A stretch of 64,000 bases of DNA from Gemmatimonadota bacterium (GTDB lineage Bacteria; JAAXHH01): contig JAPOYX010000268.1 in assembly GCA_026706345.1 (NCBI GenBank), positions 1-64,000 of the forward strand, in the 5' to 3' direction. Made by a program: the position numbers and the translations under genes. A model generated the notes under the pieces. It made no database searches. It was not told the origin of the DNA and saw only the letters and a list, made by a program, of their open reading frames with translations. Each line of letters opens with the position of its first letter. The stretch's first letter is position 1. Below, in pieces: positions 2,062 to 11,926 of this stretch.

Positions 2062-3129
2062 ATGGCCGTGGAGAAAGAACTGACGAGTGCGGCGTGGTCC
2101 GGCGACCTGGACGCGACGAAAACCCTGTTGAAGGAAGACCCGGATGCCGCCCGGCACTGGCAGCCTATCATGACCGCCGCCTTTACGGGGAGTACGGAGA
2201 TCGTGCAGCTTCTCCTGGAACACGGCGCCGACCCCAACGTGCTGAGCAGGAACAACCACCGCCACCGGCCGCTTCACCGGGTGCTGGAACACAAGAAGAC
2301 GATACCCAAGGGTCCGAGCCACGTCGAGACCGTGCGCGTGCTTCTCGAGTTCGGCGCGCGCGTTGAACTCCGCGGCGGGCACGGCCGCATGACGGCGCCC
2401 TGTCTCGCCGCCGTGGGCGGGGAGATCCAGTTTCTGCCGGCGCTCCGGGAGCACATCGAAGAGTGGGACATCTTCACCAGCGTGGCGCTGGGCGAGGAGG
2501 AGCGGGTCCAGACGCTTCTCGACGGGGACGCGGCCCTGGTCGACGCGGTGGACGAGAACCGTTGGCGTCCCCTGAACTACGCCGCGGCTTCCAGGGCCGG
2601 AAGGGACGACGCCGCGATGGCGAAACGTCTCGAGCAGATCGTCGCGCTGCTCCTGGAACGGGGCGCCGAGGTCAACCGGCCTCCCCCGGCGCTGACCTCG
2701 GCCATTGGGAATCCATCCATGATGCGGGCGCTGCTGGACGCCGGGGCGAAACCCGATCCAGGCCTGATCAGCGCCCTGTGGAACGTGGACTATGATTCCG
2801 TGGAACTGCTGCTTTCGGCGGGGGCGGACATCCGGCATCCCGCGGTGGACGACACCCTGAGCGAACTGGTGCAGTACGGCACGTACAAAATGGCCCGGTT
2901 CCTGATCGACCGCGGCGCCAACGTGAACAGCCTTGACGATCACCGCGGACGCACCGTGTTGCACTGGACCGCCGTCCGGGGTGCCGGGAAGGAATTCGTC
3001 GCCTACCTGCTCGACCAGGGCGTCGACCCGTCGATCAGGGACCGGGACGGCGCTACGGCGCTGGACATCGCCAAAGCCAGGAAACGGAAGACGATTGTAT
3101 CGATGTTGCAGGAAAGAGGGGCGGGATGA
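2062..3129 (+). CDS. Ankyrin-repeat protein
   Basis: A 355-residue protein starting at ATG 2062, chosen because AACGGAGG lies 10-18 bases upstream and the protein then begins MAVEKELTSAAW. It has at least six ankyrin-like repeats spread along the chain, for example STEIVQLLLEHGADPN, ETVRVLLEFGARVE, QIVALLLERGAEVN, MMRALLDAGAKPD, SVELLLSAGADIR and MARFLIDRGANVN. There is no signal peptide, so it is probably cytoplasmic. Ankyrin repeats mediate protein-protein contacts and no catalytic domain is visible, so the partner is unknown. The stop overlaps the start of the GNAT gene by 4 bases, indicating translational coupling. Confidence 0.85.
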   Translation: MAVEKELTSAAWSGDLDATKTLLKEDPDAARHWQPIMTAAFTGSTEIVQLLLEHGADPNVLSRNNHRHRPLHRVLEHKKTIPKGPSHVETVRVLLEFGARVELRGGHGRMTAPCLAAVGGEIQFLPALREHIEEWDIFTSVALGEEERVQTLLDGDAALVDAVDENRWRPLNYAAASRAGRDDAAMAKRLEQIVALLLERGAEVNRPPPALTSAIGNPSMMRALLDAGAKPDPGLISALWNVDYDSVELLLSAGADIRHPAVDDTLSELVQYGTYKMARFLIDRGANVNSLDDHRGRTVLHWTAVRGAGKEFVAYLLDQGVDPSIRDRDGATALDIAKARKRKTIVSMLQERGAG

Positions 3130-3611
3130 TTCGGATTCGCCGTGCCGGGGAGGACGACTTCGACGCGATCTGGTCCATCTTTCACCGGGTCGTGCGAGCG
3201 GCCGACCCCTATCCCTATCCACCCGAGACGGACAGGCAGGAGGCGTACGCGATGTGGATGGCGCCGCCGAACCGGCCCTACGTGGCCCTGGACGGCGGTG
3301 AGGTGGCGGGCACCTACTATCTGCGGCCCAACCAGCCGGGGCAGGGCGCCCACGTGGCCAACGCCGGGTTCATGGTCGATCCGGACCGCCAGGGCCGCGG
3401 CGTGGGACGGGCGATGGGGGCGCACGCCGTCGAAGAGGCGCGCCGCGAGGGTTTCCTGGCCATGCAGTTCAACATGGTCGTCAGCACGAACCACCGGGCC
3501 GTGGCGCTGTGGCGGGACCTGGGGTTTACGGTGACCGCTACAATACCGGACGCGTTCAATCATCCTGAACACGGCCTCGTGGATGCCCACATCATGTACC
3601 GGAAGTTGTAG
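3126..3611 (+). CDS. GNAT-family N-acetyltransferase
   Basis: A 161-residue protein whose ATG overlaps the ankyrin stop codon (ATGA). The acetyl-CoA binding motif A is plain at about residues 80-105: GFMVDPDRQGRGVGRAMG matches the V-x-x-x-x-R/Q-x-x-G-x-G/A pattern. The later VVSTNHRAVALWRDLGF segment is the usual Asn and LW-GF region of GNAT enzymes. It transfers an acetyl group from acetyl-CoA to an amine; the substrate cannot be read from the sequence. The length is normal for a single-domain GNAT. It is coupled to the ankyrin gene and followed 10 bases later by the cyclotransferase gene. Confidence 0.9.
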   Translation: MIRIRRAGEDDFDAIWSIFHRVVRAADPYPYPPETDRQEAYAMWMAPPNRPYVALDGGEVAGTYYLRPNQPGQGAHVANAGFMVDPDRQGRGVGRAMGAHAVEEARREGFLAMQFNMVVSTNHRAVALWRDLGFTVTATIPDAFNHPEHGLVDAHIMYRKL

Positions 3612-3621
3612 GGAATACCCT

Positions 3622-4476
3622 ATGATCCGGAATGTCTGCACCGTTCTGATCTGCCTGGCGGGGCTGTTTGCCTTCGCTACCTGTTCCGAGCCGACGAATT
3701 CGAGCACCCTTCCCGACGTGACGCCGGACGAGACCGGTTCCACGGAGGGGACGGCCGCAAAGGCGTATACCTACGAAGTGGTCCGTTCGTTCCCCCACGA
3801 CACCCGCGCCTTCACCCAGGGCCTGGCTGTCGAGGGCGACATACTTTTCGAGAGCACCGGAAACTACGGCCAATCCACCTTGCGCCAAGTGGCGTTGCAG
3901 ACCGGCGCGGTGGAACGGATCCGTCGCCTCTCGTCGACGATCTTCGGAGAAGGACTCGCCCTCTACGACGGCAAGATCATCCAGCTGACCTGGAAGTCCG
4001 GTGTAGGCTTCATCTACGACAGGGATACCTTCGAGCTGCTGCGAAGCGTTAGCTATCCCGGCGAAGGATGGGGCATAACCTACGACGGGGAGCGGTTCAT
4101 CATGAGCGACGGATCGTCCACGCTGTACTTCCGCGACAAAGTGACCTTCGAAGAGACCGGCAGGGTATTCGTGCGGGACGGAGACGGCCAGGTGCGCAAT
4201 CTGAACGAACTGGAGTATGTAAAGGGCGAAATCTACGCCAATATCTGGCAAGAGGACCGTATCGCCCGCATCAATCCCGAAACCGGACGGGTGACCGGGT
4301 GGATCGACCTGGAGGGGCTGCTGGAGTCAGGCGGTAGTGAAGGGGCGAACGGCACGGAAGACGTACTCAACGGCATCGCCTACGACGCCGAGGGGGACCG
4401 GCTTTTCGTCACCGGGAAATGGTGGCCCCGGCTCTTCCAGATCAGGCTCATCGAAGAACAGGAACCTCCCCGGTGA
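3622..4476 (+). CDS. Glutaminyl-peptide cyclotransferase, secreted
   Basis: The start at ATG 3622 gives a 284-residue protein with a hydrophobic N-terminal signal (about residues 5-21, ending FATCS). A Cys there could be lipidated, but the lipobox is poor. The mature part is a beta-propeller of the plant/bacterial glutamine cyclotransferase family: FTQGLAVEGD, ESTGNYGQSTLR, GEGWGITYDG, NELEYV and DVLNGIAYD are family-typical blocks. The enzyme converts N-terminal Gln to pyroglutamate, here in the periplasm or at the outer membrane. It probably shares a transcript with the upstream GNAT gene. Confidence 0.85.
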   Translation: MIRNVCTVLICLAGLFAFATCSEPTNSSTLPDVTPDETGSTEGTAAKAYTYEVVRSFPHDTRAFTQGLAVEGDILFESTGNYGQSTLRQVALQTGAVERIRRLSSTIFGEGLALYDGKIIQLTWKSGVGFIYDRDTFELLRSVSYPGEGWGITYDGERFIMSDGSSTLYFRDKVTFEETGRVFVRDGDGQVRNLNELEYVKGEIYANIWQEDRIARINPETGRVTGWIDLEGLLESGGSEGANGTEDVLNGIAYDAEGDRLFVTGKWWPRLFQIRLIEEQEPPR

Positions 4477-6989: not shown

Positions 6990-8435
6990 CTACTTCAGGC
7001 CCCAGGCTTCCAACTGTCGTGTAATGCCTTCGGCCACCGCTTCGAGTCCGCCCGGACCGATCGCCGCGGCCTCTTCCTGGTAGAGCCCCTTGTCATAGTC
7101 GTCCCTGGGCAGCAGGTAGCCGCCCGTCCCCCGGTTGCACAGGACGACCACGACGATCGCGGTAGCGGGGAAGCGTGCCCGCAGCTCGCGCTGCAGCACA
7201 TTGTAGGGCTCGCCGCTCACCAGCACGAGGACGCCTTCGCCAATACGCCAGAGCGTGACGCCATAGGGAGCGCCCTTCCTGTCCGGCGGAAGCGTCTCGA
7301 TGCGCCGCATGGCCCGCCGGACCCGTTCTATCCGGGCGCGGCAGTCGGCGGCTTCGTGGTCCTGCCCTTCCCGCCTCGCCGCTTCTTCACCGGACGTCCA
7401 TTCGGCGAGTTGCCGGTCCAGTTCCGCCTGCGTAGGCAGATCCAGCAGGGGCAGGTCCAGGGTCATCACGGCGGAGTCGAAGGCTGCGAGCCGCTGCCCC
7501 CGCCCCGCATCCACTGGACTTTGGCGCCATACGCCGATGGTGGCGCCCGAGATCACGGGACCGTCGTAGCGCATCTCGATCCCATCGGGCAACAAGGCCT
7601 CCATGGCCGACAGCGCGGCATAGCCGAGTTGACGGCCGTTCCGGTCCGCCGCCTCCGTTTCGCCCACGAACCCGTACCGGGGGCCGAGATCACCGCTCGC
7701 GCCCAGCAGGAACACACAGGGTGCGCCGGTTTCCCGTTCCACGACCTCCCGCATGGCCCCGGGGTAGTCGGGACTGATGAGCGTATTGTCCCAGGCCAGG
7801 GTCGTCGGGTGGCAACTGTAGTTGACGAGGGTGGCGATTATCCCGCCCTCCCGGTCGCTGGCGCGCGTCACCACGACGGTATCGTCGGCGGCACGTTCTG
7901 GATTGGTCCCGCAGGCGTACAGCTGATGCGCTTCGTCCCAGTAGTCGCGGTTGCGGGCCAGGTCGCACCGTCCGTATCCGAAGGCCAGGTCGACCGGCTT
8001 CACGGCGGCCCGGGCCTTTTCTACCAGACCGACGAGTCCCTTTCCGAGGTCAGCCAGGTACCCCGGGATCAGCGAGCCGCCCTCGTGCTCCAGTCGATCG
8101 GGATCGTAGTTTCCGGCAGCGTGCGTATGCGAGAAAGTGAGGACGACACGCTCGGCGGGCAGGCCGGTTCCGGAGGAAACGGTATCCGAAAGGCGTCGCA
8201 GGTCGCCAGCCTGCAGCCAGCCCAGTTCGAGGGAGACGAGGGCGTGTTCCGCCCCGGAACCGGGATCCACGAATACGAGCGCAGATGCGGTCAGTTCCCG
8301 GTGCACGCCCGTCGACGCATCATGCTTCGCGGCGCCCCAGCTGCGGTGGTAGATGCCCGCGGGCGGGGTGATGTCGATCCGTGCGAAGCCCAGTTCGCAC
8401 CGGCCGGCCGGCATGGAGATTACCCGCTGGCTCAA
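6990..8435 (-). CDS. Neutral/alkaline ceramidase-like hydrolase
   Basis: 481 residues with no clear signal peptide. Family blocks of the neutral/alkaline non-lysosomal ceramidase N-terminal domain are visible: GFARIDITPPAG near the start, TFSHTHAAG (likely zinc His), LVNYSCHPTTLAWDN, and FLLGASGDLGPR. Characterised members hydrolyse the amide bond of ceramide. Many bacterial homologues have untested substrates, and this one lacks the C-terminal immunoglobulin-like domain of true ceramidases, so an alternative amide or sugar-linked substrate is possible. It is the last gene of a minus-strand run that includes the MOSC and SDR genes. Confidence 0.75.
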   Translation of the reverse strand: MSQRVISMPAGRCELGFARIDITPPAGIYHRSWGAAKHDASTGVHRELTASALVFVDPGSGAEHALVSLELGWLQAGDLRRLSDTVSSGTGLPAERVVLTFSHTHAAGNYDPDRLEHEGGSLIPGYLADLGKGLVGLVEKARAAVKPVDLAFGYGRCDLARNRDYWDEAHQLYACGTNPERAADDTVVVTRASDREGGIIATLVNYSCHPTTLAWDNTLISPDYPGAMREVVERETGAPCVFLLGASGDLGPRYGFVGETEAADRNGRQLGYAALSAMEALLPDGIEMRYDGPVISGATIGVWRQSPVDAGRGQRLAAFDSAVMTLDLPLLDLPTQAELDRQLAEWTSGEEAARREGQDHEAADCRARIERVRRAMRRIETLPPDRKGAPYGVTLWRIGEGVLVLVSGEPYNVLQRELRARFPATAIVVVVLCNRGTGGYLLPRDDYDKGLYQEEAAAIGPGGLEAVAEGITRQLEAWGLK

Positions 8436-9361: not shown

Positions 9362-10081
9362 TTATGATTGGTTGTTACGCGACGGACGCTTGTGGACGAT
9401 CTGCGTGCGCTGCGGTTTGATGACGATCTGCGTGATCACCGTCCCTTCCCGCTGCTCCACGGCCTGGGCGACGGCATCAGCCACGCATTCCGGCGTGATG
9501 TGGGCATCGGGCGCTTCGCCGGGCTCGAAGTCGGTTCCGTCATAGAAAGGTGTCCGGGTCATGTCGGGATACAGGGTTACCACCCGGACGCCGCTCTTCC
9601 GCACCTCGCTGAAGAGCGCCTGCCCGAACTGGTGGAGGCCGGCCTTCGTCGCGCCATAGGCGGCGCCAAAGGATCCCGGGTTCAGCGCCGCCGTTGAGGC
9701 GATGTTGACGATGTACCCCCGCGATCTCTCCAGGTGCCGCAGGGTCGCCCTGGCCAGGACCATGGGCGCGATCAGGTTGGTCTGCACCATGCGTTCGATC
9801 CGGTCGGGCGCCATGGCAGCGTGGGGACCGAAGTAACCGACACCGGCGTTGTTGACCAGGATCTTCAGGCCCCCGGCCGCTCTGAGCAGCGCCTCGGTAC
9901 TTTCCAGCAAGACCCGGGTGTCGGTGACGTCGCAGGTGACCGGGTGGTACCGGTCGTGGCGGAATGAGGCCTTCCCGTGGTCCCTGGCATATCCGTAGAC
10001 GGCATAGTCCAGTTCGACCAGGCGCCTGGCGATGGCCAGGCCGATTCCGGAGGAAGCGCCGGTTACCAGGGCTACGTCCAT
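9362..10081 (-). CDS. Short-chain dehydrogenase/reductase, photolyase-type operon
   Basis: 239 residues of a classical SDR: cofactor motif TGASSGIG (residues 7-14), NNAG, catalytic Ser in IVNIAST, and the YGATK catalytic Tyr-x-x-x-Lys. The start overlaps the stop of the radical SAM gene by 10 bases, so the two are probably translationally coupled. The C-terminus is basic (PQRTQIVHKRPSRNN). The substrate is unknown. Its position directly behind a spore-photoproduct-lyase homologue and a nucleosidase-like gene suggests a role in processing modified nucleosides or a related product, but that is inference. Confidence 0.85.
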   Translation of the reverse strand: MDVALVTGASSGIGLAIARRLVELDYAVYGYARDHGKASFRHDRYHPVTCDVTDTRVLLESTEALLRAAGGLKILVNNAGVGYFGPHAAMAPDRIERMVQTNLIAPMVLARATLRHLERSRGYIVNIASTAALNPGSFGAAYGATKAGLHQFGQALFSEVRKSGVRVVTLYPDMTRTPFYDGTDFEPGEAPDAHITPECVADAVAQAVEQREGTVITQIVIKPQRTQIVHKRPSRNNQS

Positions 10082-11112
10082 GCGGCGATTTGCTCCTCGT
10101 TGAAGTGGTCGCCCAGGCGTCGGCGCATGAAGGCGGTCATGGCCTCCCGGCGTTCGGCCGGATAGGTCACGGTCGTCCCCTCCTGTACGTATCCGTCGTA
10201 CAGAAGGGGCATATCCCGCCGCTGGCGCTTCATACGCTGGAAATGGTCCTTCGCCATGCGGAAGACGCCCACGGTCACGTCACGAACGGCGGCCGGATCG
10301 ATCCGCCGAAAGACCTCCTCGACCAGTTCTCCGTACATAGACTCCCACGACGGGACGGCCAGGACTGGGTCGAAGCAGAGACGGACCGGCCAGCCGTCCT
10401 CGATAGCCGCCTGAACGGCGTCCAGCCTCTGGCCGAGGGGTGCCGCCCCGTGCTCATAGCGTGCGGCGACCGGTTCGGGGGAGAGCGTCCACGCCAGGAT
10501 GACCCGGTCTGTAGGCGGCAGATCCTTTATCGTCCGGTACGCGGCGCTCTTGGTACGGATTTCGACGAGCAGGTCCGGCTCCTCGCGGGCGAATTCGATC
10601 CACGCGCGGCAATAGGGCACGACCGATTCGAATGCGAGCAGGTCGGTGTCGTACGAGATGCACAGGTAGAACGGCTGCGACGGGTTCGACCGGTCGCGCA
10701 TGCCCTCGCGCGTCGCCGTAAAATAGTCCTCCAGGTTCACGAAGACCACGATATTCGCCGATGGGTACATGCCTTGCAGATAACAGTAGTCGCAGTTGTA
10801 CACGCAGTTGAACATGAGCGTGTTGTAGTAGAAATCCTCGAGGCTGAAGTTCTGGCTGTTCCCCGACCCGTCGTACAGGAACCGGTCCTTCTTCACGGCC
10901 AAGATCAGTTTCATGCTCGCTTTTTGCGGCTGGAACCGCTGCCTCGGACGTGCGAAGACCGCCTTGTAGTCGTCGATTTCCACCACCCGGGCCTTCGCGA
11001 AGCGATCCCGGATGCGACGTGTGATCGGGTAGTCGGCCGCGCCGTGCTCGATGTAGATGTGGGAGAAACTACCCCACCGAGAGGATGTCCCGTAGCCGTT
11101 CAAATTGCGCAT
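10072..11112 (-). CDS. Spore photoproduct lyase-family radical SAM enzyme
   Basis: 346 residues, close to the length of Bacillus SplB. The radical SAM cluster is C-x3-C-x2-C at Cys103, Cys107 and Cys110 (NCVYNCDYCYLQ). A further Cys at 151 (FYLCISYDTD), 41 residues after the last cluster Cys, sits about where SplB has its H-atom donor Cys141 (by-eye alignment from memory). SplB repairs the thymine dimer 5-thyminyl-5,6-dihydrothymine in spore DNA. Nothing else in this window suggests sporulation, so the substrate here may differ. The start overlaps the nucleosidase-like gene by 44 bases and the end overlaps the SDR gene by 10. Confidence 0.85.
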   Translation of the reverse strand: MRNLNGYGTSSRWGSFSHIYIEHGAADYPITRRIRDRFAKARVVEIDDYKAVFARPRQRFQPQKASMKLILAVKKDRFLYDGSGNSQNFSLEDFYYNTLMFNCVYNCDYCYLQGMYPSANIVVFVNLEDYFTATREGMRDRSNPSQPFYLCISYDTDLLAFESVVPYCRAWIEFAREEPDLLVEIRTKSAAYRTIKDLPPTDRVILAWTLSPEPVAARYEHGAAPLGQRLDAVQAAIEDGWPVRLCFDPVLAVPSWESMYGELVEEVFRRIDPAAVRDVTVGVFRMAKDHFQRMKRQRRDMPLLYDGYVQEGTTVTYPAERREAMTAFMRRRLGDHFNEEQIAAWT

Positions 11113-11926
11113 CGCCTTCCTGTTTCGTCTTCACGGAGACGTGGGTAAACCGCGTCAGGTCAGGCATGTCCGACCCGGTGTGAAGCTTGTAGGACCGCAC
11201 CAGGTCGGCCAGCATCCTGTGCCGGCTGACCGTCAGACGCAGCCGGCTTCGTATCTGTTCGACGATCCGGACATCCGCATCGGTCAACACGTCCAGTCCG
11301 CCGTCGGAGACTTTCCTGTAGGCCGCGATGGCCGCTTCGACCTCATCCAGGGATCCCGCGATCAGGCCGGCCACCCTGTTCTTGTCGAATCGCCGCGTTT
11401 CCAGGTGGTCGGAAACGACTTTCACGCACCCGATCCGATGAGGTGGGAGGAAGGTCGCCGCCGCCTGGTAGAATCCGGCCGCCTCCATGTCGACCAAGCC
11501 CGGTTCCACGCCGTCGGCATCCGCCCGGTCCAGGGGGCGTTCCACGGTTGTGAGCGGAGATTCCGCCAGGGGCGTCCTCGCCAGCAGGTCGGGATAGAAG
11601 GACCGGCTCGTGCTCCTTTCCGTGATCTTGTTCGCGAGAAACCGGTCTCCCTCCGAGACGGGGCCTTCCCCCGCCTTCTGCGTATGGCCGGCGATGCCGA
11701 GGTTGAAAATGACCGCTCGCGCCCTGTCCTCAACCCGCGCGATGAGCAAGGTGGTCGCGATGGCGGACTTCATGCTTCCCGGGCCCGTGACGGTGAGCCA
11801 GGTATCGTCCCGCCGGAAAACGGGCAGGGCGAAGGAAGCGTCCTGCTTCAGGCGGAACCGCTCGATAGCCGGGCGCGCTTCAGGATGCAGGGCGACGGCG
11901 AGTAGGATCGGCATAGAAGGTTCCAT
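11069..11926 (-). CDS. Nucleosidase/phosphorylase-superfamily protein
   Basis: 285 residues from ATG 11926; a second ATG five codons on (MPILLAVAL) is also possible. The N-terminal two thirds resemble MTA/SAH nucleosidase and purine nucleoside phosphorylase folds: VTGPGSMKSA, IFNLGIAGH, and the signature VDMEAAGFYQAA with the catalytic-type Asp in VKVVSDHLE. Residues about 200-285 are an extra helical, basic segment (SRLRLTVSRHRMLADLVRSYK) not normal for the family. The reaction is probably cleavage of an N-glycosidic bond, but the substrate is unknown. It leads a three-gene overlapping set with the radical SAM and SDR genes. Confidence 0.75.
   Translation of the reverse strand: MEPSMPILLAVALHPEARPAIERFRLKQDASFALPVFRRDDTWLTVTGPGSMKSAIATTLLIARVEDRARAVIFNLGIAGHTQKAGEGPVSEGDRFLANKITERSTSRSFYPDLLARTPLAESPLTTVERPLDRADADGVEPGLVDMEAAGFYQAAATFLPPHRIGCVKVVSDHLETRRFDKNRVAGLIAGSLDEVEAAIAAYRKVSDGGLDVLTDADVRIVEQIRSRLRLTVSRHRMLADLVRSYKLHTGSDMPDLTRFTHVSVKTKQEGDAQFERLRDILSVG

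Follow-up and report, generated by a model that had tools for sequence, protein, structure and literature searches.

A nucleosidase gene and a divergent spore-photoproduct-lyase-like radical SAM gene, often accompanied by a short-chain dehydrogenase/reductase gene, form a conserved module

The closest described relatives of the radical SAM protein considered here are the spore photoproduct lyases. In Bacillus subtilis SplB, the H atom is returned by C141, with Y99 closing the relay, and the C141A and Y99F mutants show around one 5'-dA per repair (PMC3742179); in the SplB of C. acetobutylicum, C74 serves instead of C141 (PMC5368176). Of the ten SplBs that we read (loci L111-L118, L120, and L147), nine have Ala or Ser in the C141 column and one has Cys, which agrees with the use of another H donor by the C. 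acetobutylicum enzyme. Moreover, radical SAM enzymes are known to be inhibited by 5'-dAdo (PMC8102628). Here, we describe a trio of genes in the window (i.e., the whole stretch of 64,000 nucleotides that was analysed), in which a spore-photoproduct-lyase-like gene (SPL) lies between genes for a nucleosidase (NUC) and a short-chain dehydrogenase/reductase (SDR). A description of this module was not found in the open-access subset of the literature that was searched, which is no proof of absence.

A first, sequence-only reading of the window had reported three genes overlapping head to tail by 44 and 10 bases, and they are confirmed as three minus-strand open reading frames. The features to which we refer below are the following:

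9362..10081, minus strand: SDR, classical short-chain dehydrogenase/reductase, 239 aa
9644..9658, minus strand: SDR catalytic motif Y142-x3-K146 (YGATK)
10072-10081: overlap of the SPL and SDR frames, 10 nt
10072..11112, minus strand: SPL, divergent spore-photoproduct-lyase-like radical SAM protein, 346 aa
10375..10377, minus strand: SPL Cys246, characteristic of the trio SPL family (75/75), on the same protein strand as Arg244 and Asp248
10783..10806, minus strand: SPL cluster motif C103-x3-C107-x2-C110 with Tyr109 (equivalent of B. subtilis Y97), invariant in 75/75
11069..11112: overlap of the NUC and SPL frames, 44 nt, with the SPL start inside NUC
11069..11926, minus strand: NUC, MTAN/futalosine-hydrolase-type nucleosidase with a helical C-terminal extension, 285 aa
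11113..11121, minus strand: Shine-Dalgarno-like sequence AGGAAGGCG, directly 5' of the SPL ATG and within the NUC coding sequence
11408..11410, minus strand: NUC Asp173, VSD motif, equivalent of MTAN Asp197, in 70/70 members
11483..11485, minus strand: NUC Glu148, D-M-E motif, equivalent of MTAN Glu174, in 70/70 members
11879..11881, minus strand: NUC Glu16, aligned with MTAN Glu12, Glu in 69/69 readable members

The SPL ATG at 11112 is preceded by AGGAAGGCG, and an alternative in-frame TTG lies downstream, so that the NUC/SPL overlap measures 44 or 35 nt depending on the start. Of the 16 genomes in the small group to which the window belongs, 15 carry the trio. Assemblies of high contiguity (7 and 9 contigs) contain it, hence it is no binning artefact. 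The named close relatives of the window's genome are mostly Candidatus Latescibacterota, others being labelled Gemmatimonadetes, Zixiibacteriota, or uncultured bacterium. That no sporulation gene is visible fits with the Spo0A_C profile, which finds no match in the window's genome or in 10 relatives and is matched in all four Clostridia tested. Downstream of the SDR gene, the window carries a MOSC-domain protein (PF03476/PF03473, 8539-9351), a gene that also follows the SDR in most other genus members, and then a protein weakly resembling neutral ceramidase (6990-8435). Within the short flanks examined, the MOSC gene was not found outside the genus, and the second flanking gene was found there in only one family-level relative, while NUC-SPL-SDR persists. 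On another contig (locus L002, G000 contig C169, 48651-49136), the window's genome encodes a second radical SAM protein that is distantly related to SPL (32% identity over around 153 residues) and is found across the window's phylum.

The assignment of the first gene to the nucleosidase/phosphorylase superfamily holds. The NUC family profile matches MTA/SAH nucleosidase structures in the PDB (E 1.2e-12), PF01048 is matched by 62 of the 70 family members, and the structural model (pLDDT 95) has MTAN as its best PDB folds (TM 0.47-0.58, normalised by query). Taken alone, the window NUC gives only sub-threshold PNP/futalosine-hydrolase matches: it scores 21.5 bits against the futalosine hydrolase model, below the cut-off of 124.7, and the MTAN model does not match it at E 0.001. 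Futalosine hydrolase is the NCBIfam model matching most NUC members (61/70). Glu16, Glu148, and Asp173 align with the catalytic residues of MTAN, and our best guess is that NUC hydrolyses 5'-modified adenine nucleosides. The third gene is likewise what it had been called, its product matching PF00106 with 144 bits and displaying the GxxxGxG, NNAG, and YxxxK motifs.

The gene order was surveyed across phyla by scanning a genome collection with the SPL alignment, which retrieved 222 relatives, and the neighbourhood counts use the best 80 of these. The latter span Latescibacterota, Verrucomicrobiota, Lentisphaerota, Neomarinimicrobiota, Spirochaetota, Bacillota, Planctomycetota, Bacteroidota, and unplaced MAGs, and most phyla carrying the NUC-SPL module form no spores. 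The NUC-SPL order proved to be conserved in several phyla: among these best 80 of 222, NUC adjoins SPL in 75 loci and the two frames overlap in 69, a count that depends on the start codon chosen. In 65 of these 69 overlaps, the length equals 2 modulo 3. SDR lies 3' of SPL in 37 of the same 80 loci, some contigs ending early, and the widest-spread neighbour family after NUC and SDR is found in 14, mostly from Neomarinimicrobiota. Co-occurrence follows adjacency. Indeed, in 148 Clostridia genomes (thresholds of at least 326 bits for SPL of the trio type and at least 80 bits for NUC; a few genomes in common with the 80-locus sample), NUC is present in 23, SPL in 23, and both in 22, adjacent every time. 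The single genome without SPL in the window's phylum also has no NUC, its completeness being only 83%, and a further draw of Opitutales, partly repeating genomes of the other samples, shows NUC adjoining SPL in 20 of the 20 loci read. Moreover, NUC and SPL are fused into one protein in five genomes: in Fusobacterium vincentii, a 624-aa frame carries NUC at residues 2-273 and SPL at 289-624 and is followed by SDR, and in four Clostridia, fusions of 617-675 aa have the same domain order. On the other hand, several Leptospiraceae loci (including L055, L078, and L089) keep SPL without NUC, and one locus (L182) has SPL-SDR without NUC.

SPL starts within the 3' end of NUC at most loci, often behind a purine-rich stretch when inspected by eye. 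We considered a programmed frameshift between NUC and SPL, given the conserved phase, and rejected it: translation is explained by a start codon preceded, inside NUC, by purine-rich sequence, and by eye the overlaps share no slippery motif. An anti-phage defence system was also considered and rejected, since the module is chromosomal and near-universal in its phylum and no PADLOC model matches NUC, SPL, or SDR; in one scan of viral contigs, no relative was found that would indicate phage spread. From these comparisons, NUC, SPL, and often SDR are shown to form a conserved module, the first two members being co-encoded and sometimes joined in a single polypeptide. The functional link proposed in the sequence-only reading now has good support from gene order, co-occurrence, overlaps, and five fusions, and the coupling of NUC to SPL is about as firmly supported as genome comparison allows. 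SDR is an optional third member.

The placement of SPL is more subtle. The window protein presents the C-x3-C-x2-C motif expected of an SplB-type radical SAM enzyme (C103-C107-C110) and matches PF20903, the Pfam SPL family (70.7 bits, gathering score 27). It scores far under the two curated families, i.e., 77 bits against TIGR04070 (spore photoproduct lyase, cut-off 400) and 58.2 bits against TIGR03886 (SPL family protein, cut-off 437.55). In a quick tree, a branch with SH-aLRT 85 (not starred) separates the trio-type SPLs from SplB and TIGR03886, and the model (pLDDT 93.7) resembles spore photoproduct lyase structures (PDB 4fhc, TM 0.80), nothing else being comparable. Hence, the protein belongs to the SPL superfamily, as had been read from its sequence, and not to another radical SAM family, but it stands outside the SplB and TIGR03886 clades. 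When 30 genomes with the trio were tested, 10, every one from Clostridia, also contained a true SplB (438-549 bits); the two proteins are therefore paralogues, most likely with separate roles, and it is unlikely that trio SPL is a spore photoproduct lyase.

The comparison of residues leads in the same direction. By profile comparison, eight positions are swapped between trio SPL and SplB: 184 (E/R), 186 (R/V), 208 (W/F), 244 (R/G), 246 (C/I), 248 (D/A), 282 (G/E), and 284 (F/H). From their location on barrel strands, we infer that these positions face the pocket. Geobacillus SPL has a WGRYGI hairpin segment, which presumably carries lesion-contacting residues; in the trio SPL alignment it corresponds to a gap, so the hairpin is shortened. 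The SAM-cleaving half is thus kept and the remainder is different from SplB, and the altered pocket suggests that the enzyme does something else than repair UV damage in spores. The Cys previously assigned to the H-donor position is not borne out by closer alignment: an ungapped profile-profile alignment places Tyr154 at B. subtilis C141, and the C74-type column, i.e., the alternative donor of C. acetobutylicum, holds Phe89, so that no H-donor Cys is found there either. C151 lies 3 residues upstream of Tyr154, in a column that contains Cys in 49, Ser in 19, and Ala, Pro, or Gly in 7 of 75 members; it may still reach the substrate in the SPLs that have Cys there. The tyrosines matching B. subtilis Y97 and Y99 are present in the window SPL (Y109 and Y111), the second being Phe in 17 of 75 family members. 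Cys246 was considered as a universal replacement H donor and rejected: it is invariant in the 75 rows and Ala in one divergent fused protein (G179), the SplB column holding Ile or Leu in ten proteins. With the H-donor clue lost and the operon link strengthened, the earlier mechanistic clue fails and the association stands.

The reading that we favor, with a probability of about 0.42, is that NUC hydrolyses the adenosyl product of SPL chemistry, most likely 5'-deoxyadenosine. SPL would cleave SAM to initiate radical chemistry on some substrate that is not the spore photoproduct, and, having no full Cys/Tyr return path, it would consume SAM and release one adenosyl product per turnover. Indeed, a weaker return path makes both SAM consumption and a need to clear 5'-deoxyadenosine plausible. 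NUC, held beside SPL, would then hydrolyse this product to adenine and a 5-deoxysugar, relieving product inhibition and rendering the step irreversible. In most lineages, SDR would probably act as an oxidoreductase, as a partner that is optional. Several points weigh against this scheme. SDR is missing from about half of the loci. Other PF01048 proteins are present in most of these genomes and a canonical MTAN scores above cut-off in 11 of 26, and because most genomes hold such PNP/MTAN-type enzymes, there is no obvious need for a dedicated 5'-dAdo nucleosidase. Since most SPL members keep both Y109 and Y111, SAM recycling may occur, and NUC is not indispensable, because several Leptospiraceae retain SPL without it.

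The SDR of one lineage behaves differently. YxxxK is kept in the Latescibacterota and Clostridia SDRs and lost in most Opitutales SDRs, seven of which (L042, L045, L057, L184, L185, L191, and L199) combine this loss with a tail rich in Lys, Arg, Ala, and Pro; the exception, L198, retains YxxxK and has no basic tail. In this set, L187 repeats L042, further genome repeats are possible, and L192 and L190 are incomplete because their stretches end there. The tails resemble histone H1 (L184 2400-3875, L042 9029-10192, L045 8987-10453, and L057 9616-10932). Such basic ends are rare: in 13 Verrucomicrobiota loci, only 3 of 134 open reading frames have at least 30% K+R in their last 100 residues, and all are SDR homologues with readable ends. 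This composition suggests that the Opitutales SDR homologue may be a structural subunit near nucleic acid. In our scheme, most Opitutales would thus have a catalytically dead SDR subunit, its basic tail tethering the complex to nucleic acid, which weakly points to a nucleic-acid substrate of the module. In a Spirochaetota locus without NUC (L180, G292), a gene of the uracil-DNA-glycosylase (UDG) superfamily (2353-3000; PF03167, 90.9 bits; a single case) stands directly upstream of SPL (3000-3986).

These observations bear on a different reading, in which the module serves nucleic-acid lesion repair or damaged-nucleoside removal in non-sporulators, UV thymine dimers not being required: SPL would reverse a C-C or other DNA or RNA lesion, and NUC and SDR would process the product. 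SPL is folded like a DNA repair enzyme, and both the basic tail of the Opitutales SDR and the UDG neighbour in one Spirochaetota genome speak for it. It is, with the futalosine-like route below, one of the two main rivals of the favored scheme and about as likely as that route. We nevertheless hold it to be improbable, since the SplB pocket residues are lost and the hairpin is shortened, the module occurs in anaerobes of the gut and mouth, which see no UV, and the relatives of NUC work on free nucleosides. As for the earlier proposal of repair or salvage of a damaged nucleoside, its salvage part may hold, but NUC looks rather like a remover of the adenosyl product. A more adventurous reading, i.e., an undescribed radical SAM system that would adenosylate or otherwise modify nucleic acid or a nucleotide, the coupled nucleosidase completing the reaction and the SDR-derived subunit tethering it, seems quite doubtful to us. 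The nucleic-acid hint in the favored scheme comes from one lineage (Opitutales) and one UDG-SPL neighbour pair.

The pathway could also be built like that of futalosine, SPL C-adenosylating a substrate as MqnE does, NUC removing adenine as futalosine hydrolase does, and SDR oxidising or reducing the rest. Futalosine hydrolase being the model that matches more NUC members than any other, MqnE appearing among the weaker fold matches of SPL, and the tight coupling and fusions, which suit a NUC acting on the actual product of SPL, all fit this pathway. We consider it unlikely, however, because the MqnE match is weak (TM around 0.45) and similar to that of many radical SAM enzymes, the Leptospiraceae SPLs do without NUC, SDR is often missing, and no adenosylated metabolite is known that would account for the distribution. 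The simplest reading, in which SPL performs the job of SplB in organisms without spores, would account for the fold, the cluster Cys, Tyr109, and the other conserved residues common to both. It is nonetheless highly improbable: the scores fall far under both curated families, the branch is separate, the H-donor position is not Cys, and ten trio-bearing Clostridia have SplB as well. UV-photoproduct repair is indeed made unlikely by the clade, the pocket, this co-existence with SplB, and the presence of the module in gut Lachnospiraceae and Fusobacterium.

What emerges is a separate branch of the spore-photoproduct-lyase family whose pocket residues are unlike those of SplB and whose members, found in several phyla and also in anaerobes that are in culture, have a physical tie to a nucleosidase. 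The SPL name alone gives no ground for reading trio-type members as UV repair enzymes, and the fused Clostridia and Fusobacterium proteins are a ready single-gene construct for learning the coupled chemistry. A second SPL-like group, of around 390 aa and with a GTGELSDSLA motif (L167 3194-4438, L168, L169, L170, L173, L174, and L179), is common in the phylum of the genome of L066 and in Spirochaetota; its scores lie between SplB and the trio type, and several members come after an unannotated protein of around 315 aa without Pfam match.

Among the related systems, SplB (TIGR04070; PDB 4FHC/4FHD) has its whole-length fold in common with trio SPL (TM 0.80, around 19% identity in the fold alignment), together with CxxxCxxC, Tyr109, Asp157, Glu162, Lys188, Glu220, Arg229, Tyr260, and Arg285. 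The TIGR03886 SPLs of non-sporulating bacteria belong to the same superfamily as trio SPL and likewise occur in non-sporulators, but they are placed with SplB in the tree and have no NUC or SDR beside them in the records read. The group of around 390 aa shares PF20903 (one member tested) and, by eye, the Glu184- and Asp248-type positions with trio SPL, scores roughly 75-177 bits to its profile, and shows no NUC, by profile, at the loci read. Finally, MTA/SAH nucleosidase (TIGR01704) and futalosine hydrolase (TIGR03664) share their fold and catalytic Glu, Glu, and Asp with NUC, whereas the window NUC falls under all curated cut-offs, adds a helical C-terminal part, and is coupled to SPL.
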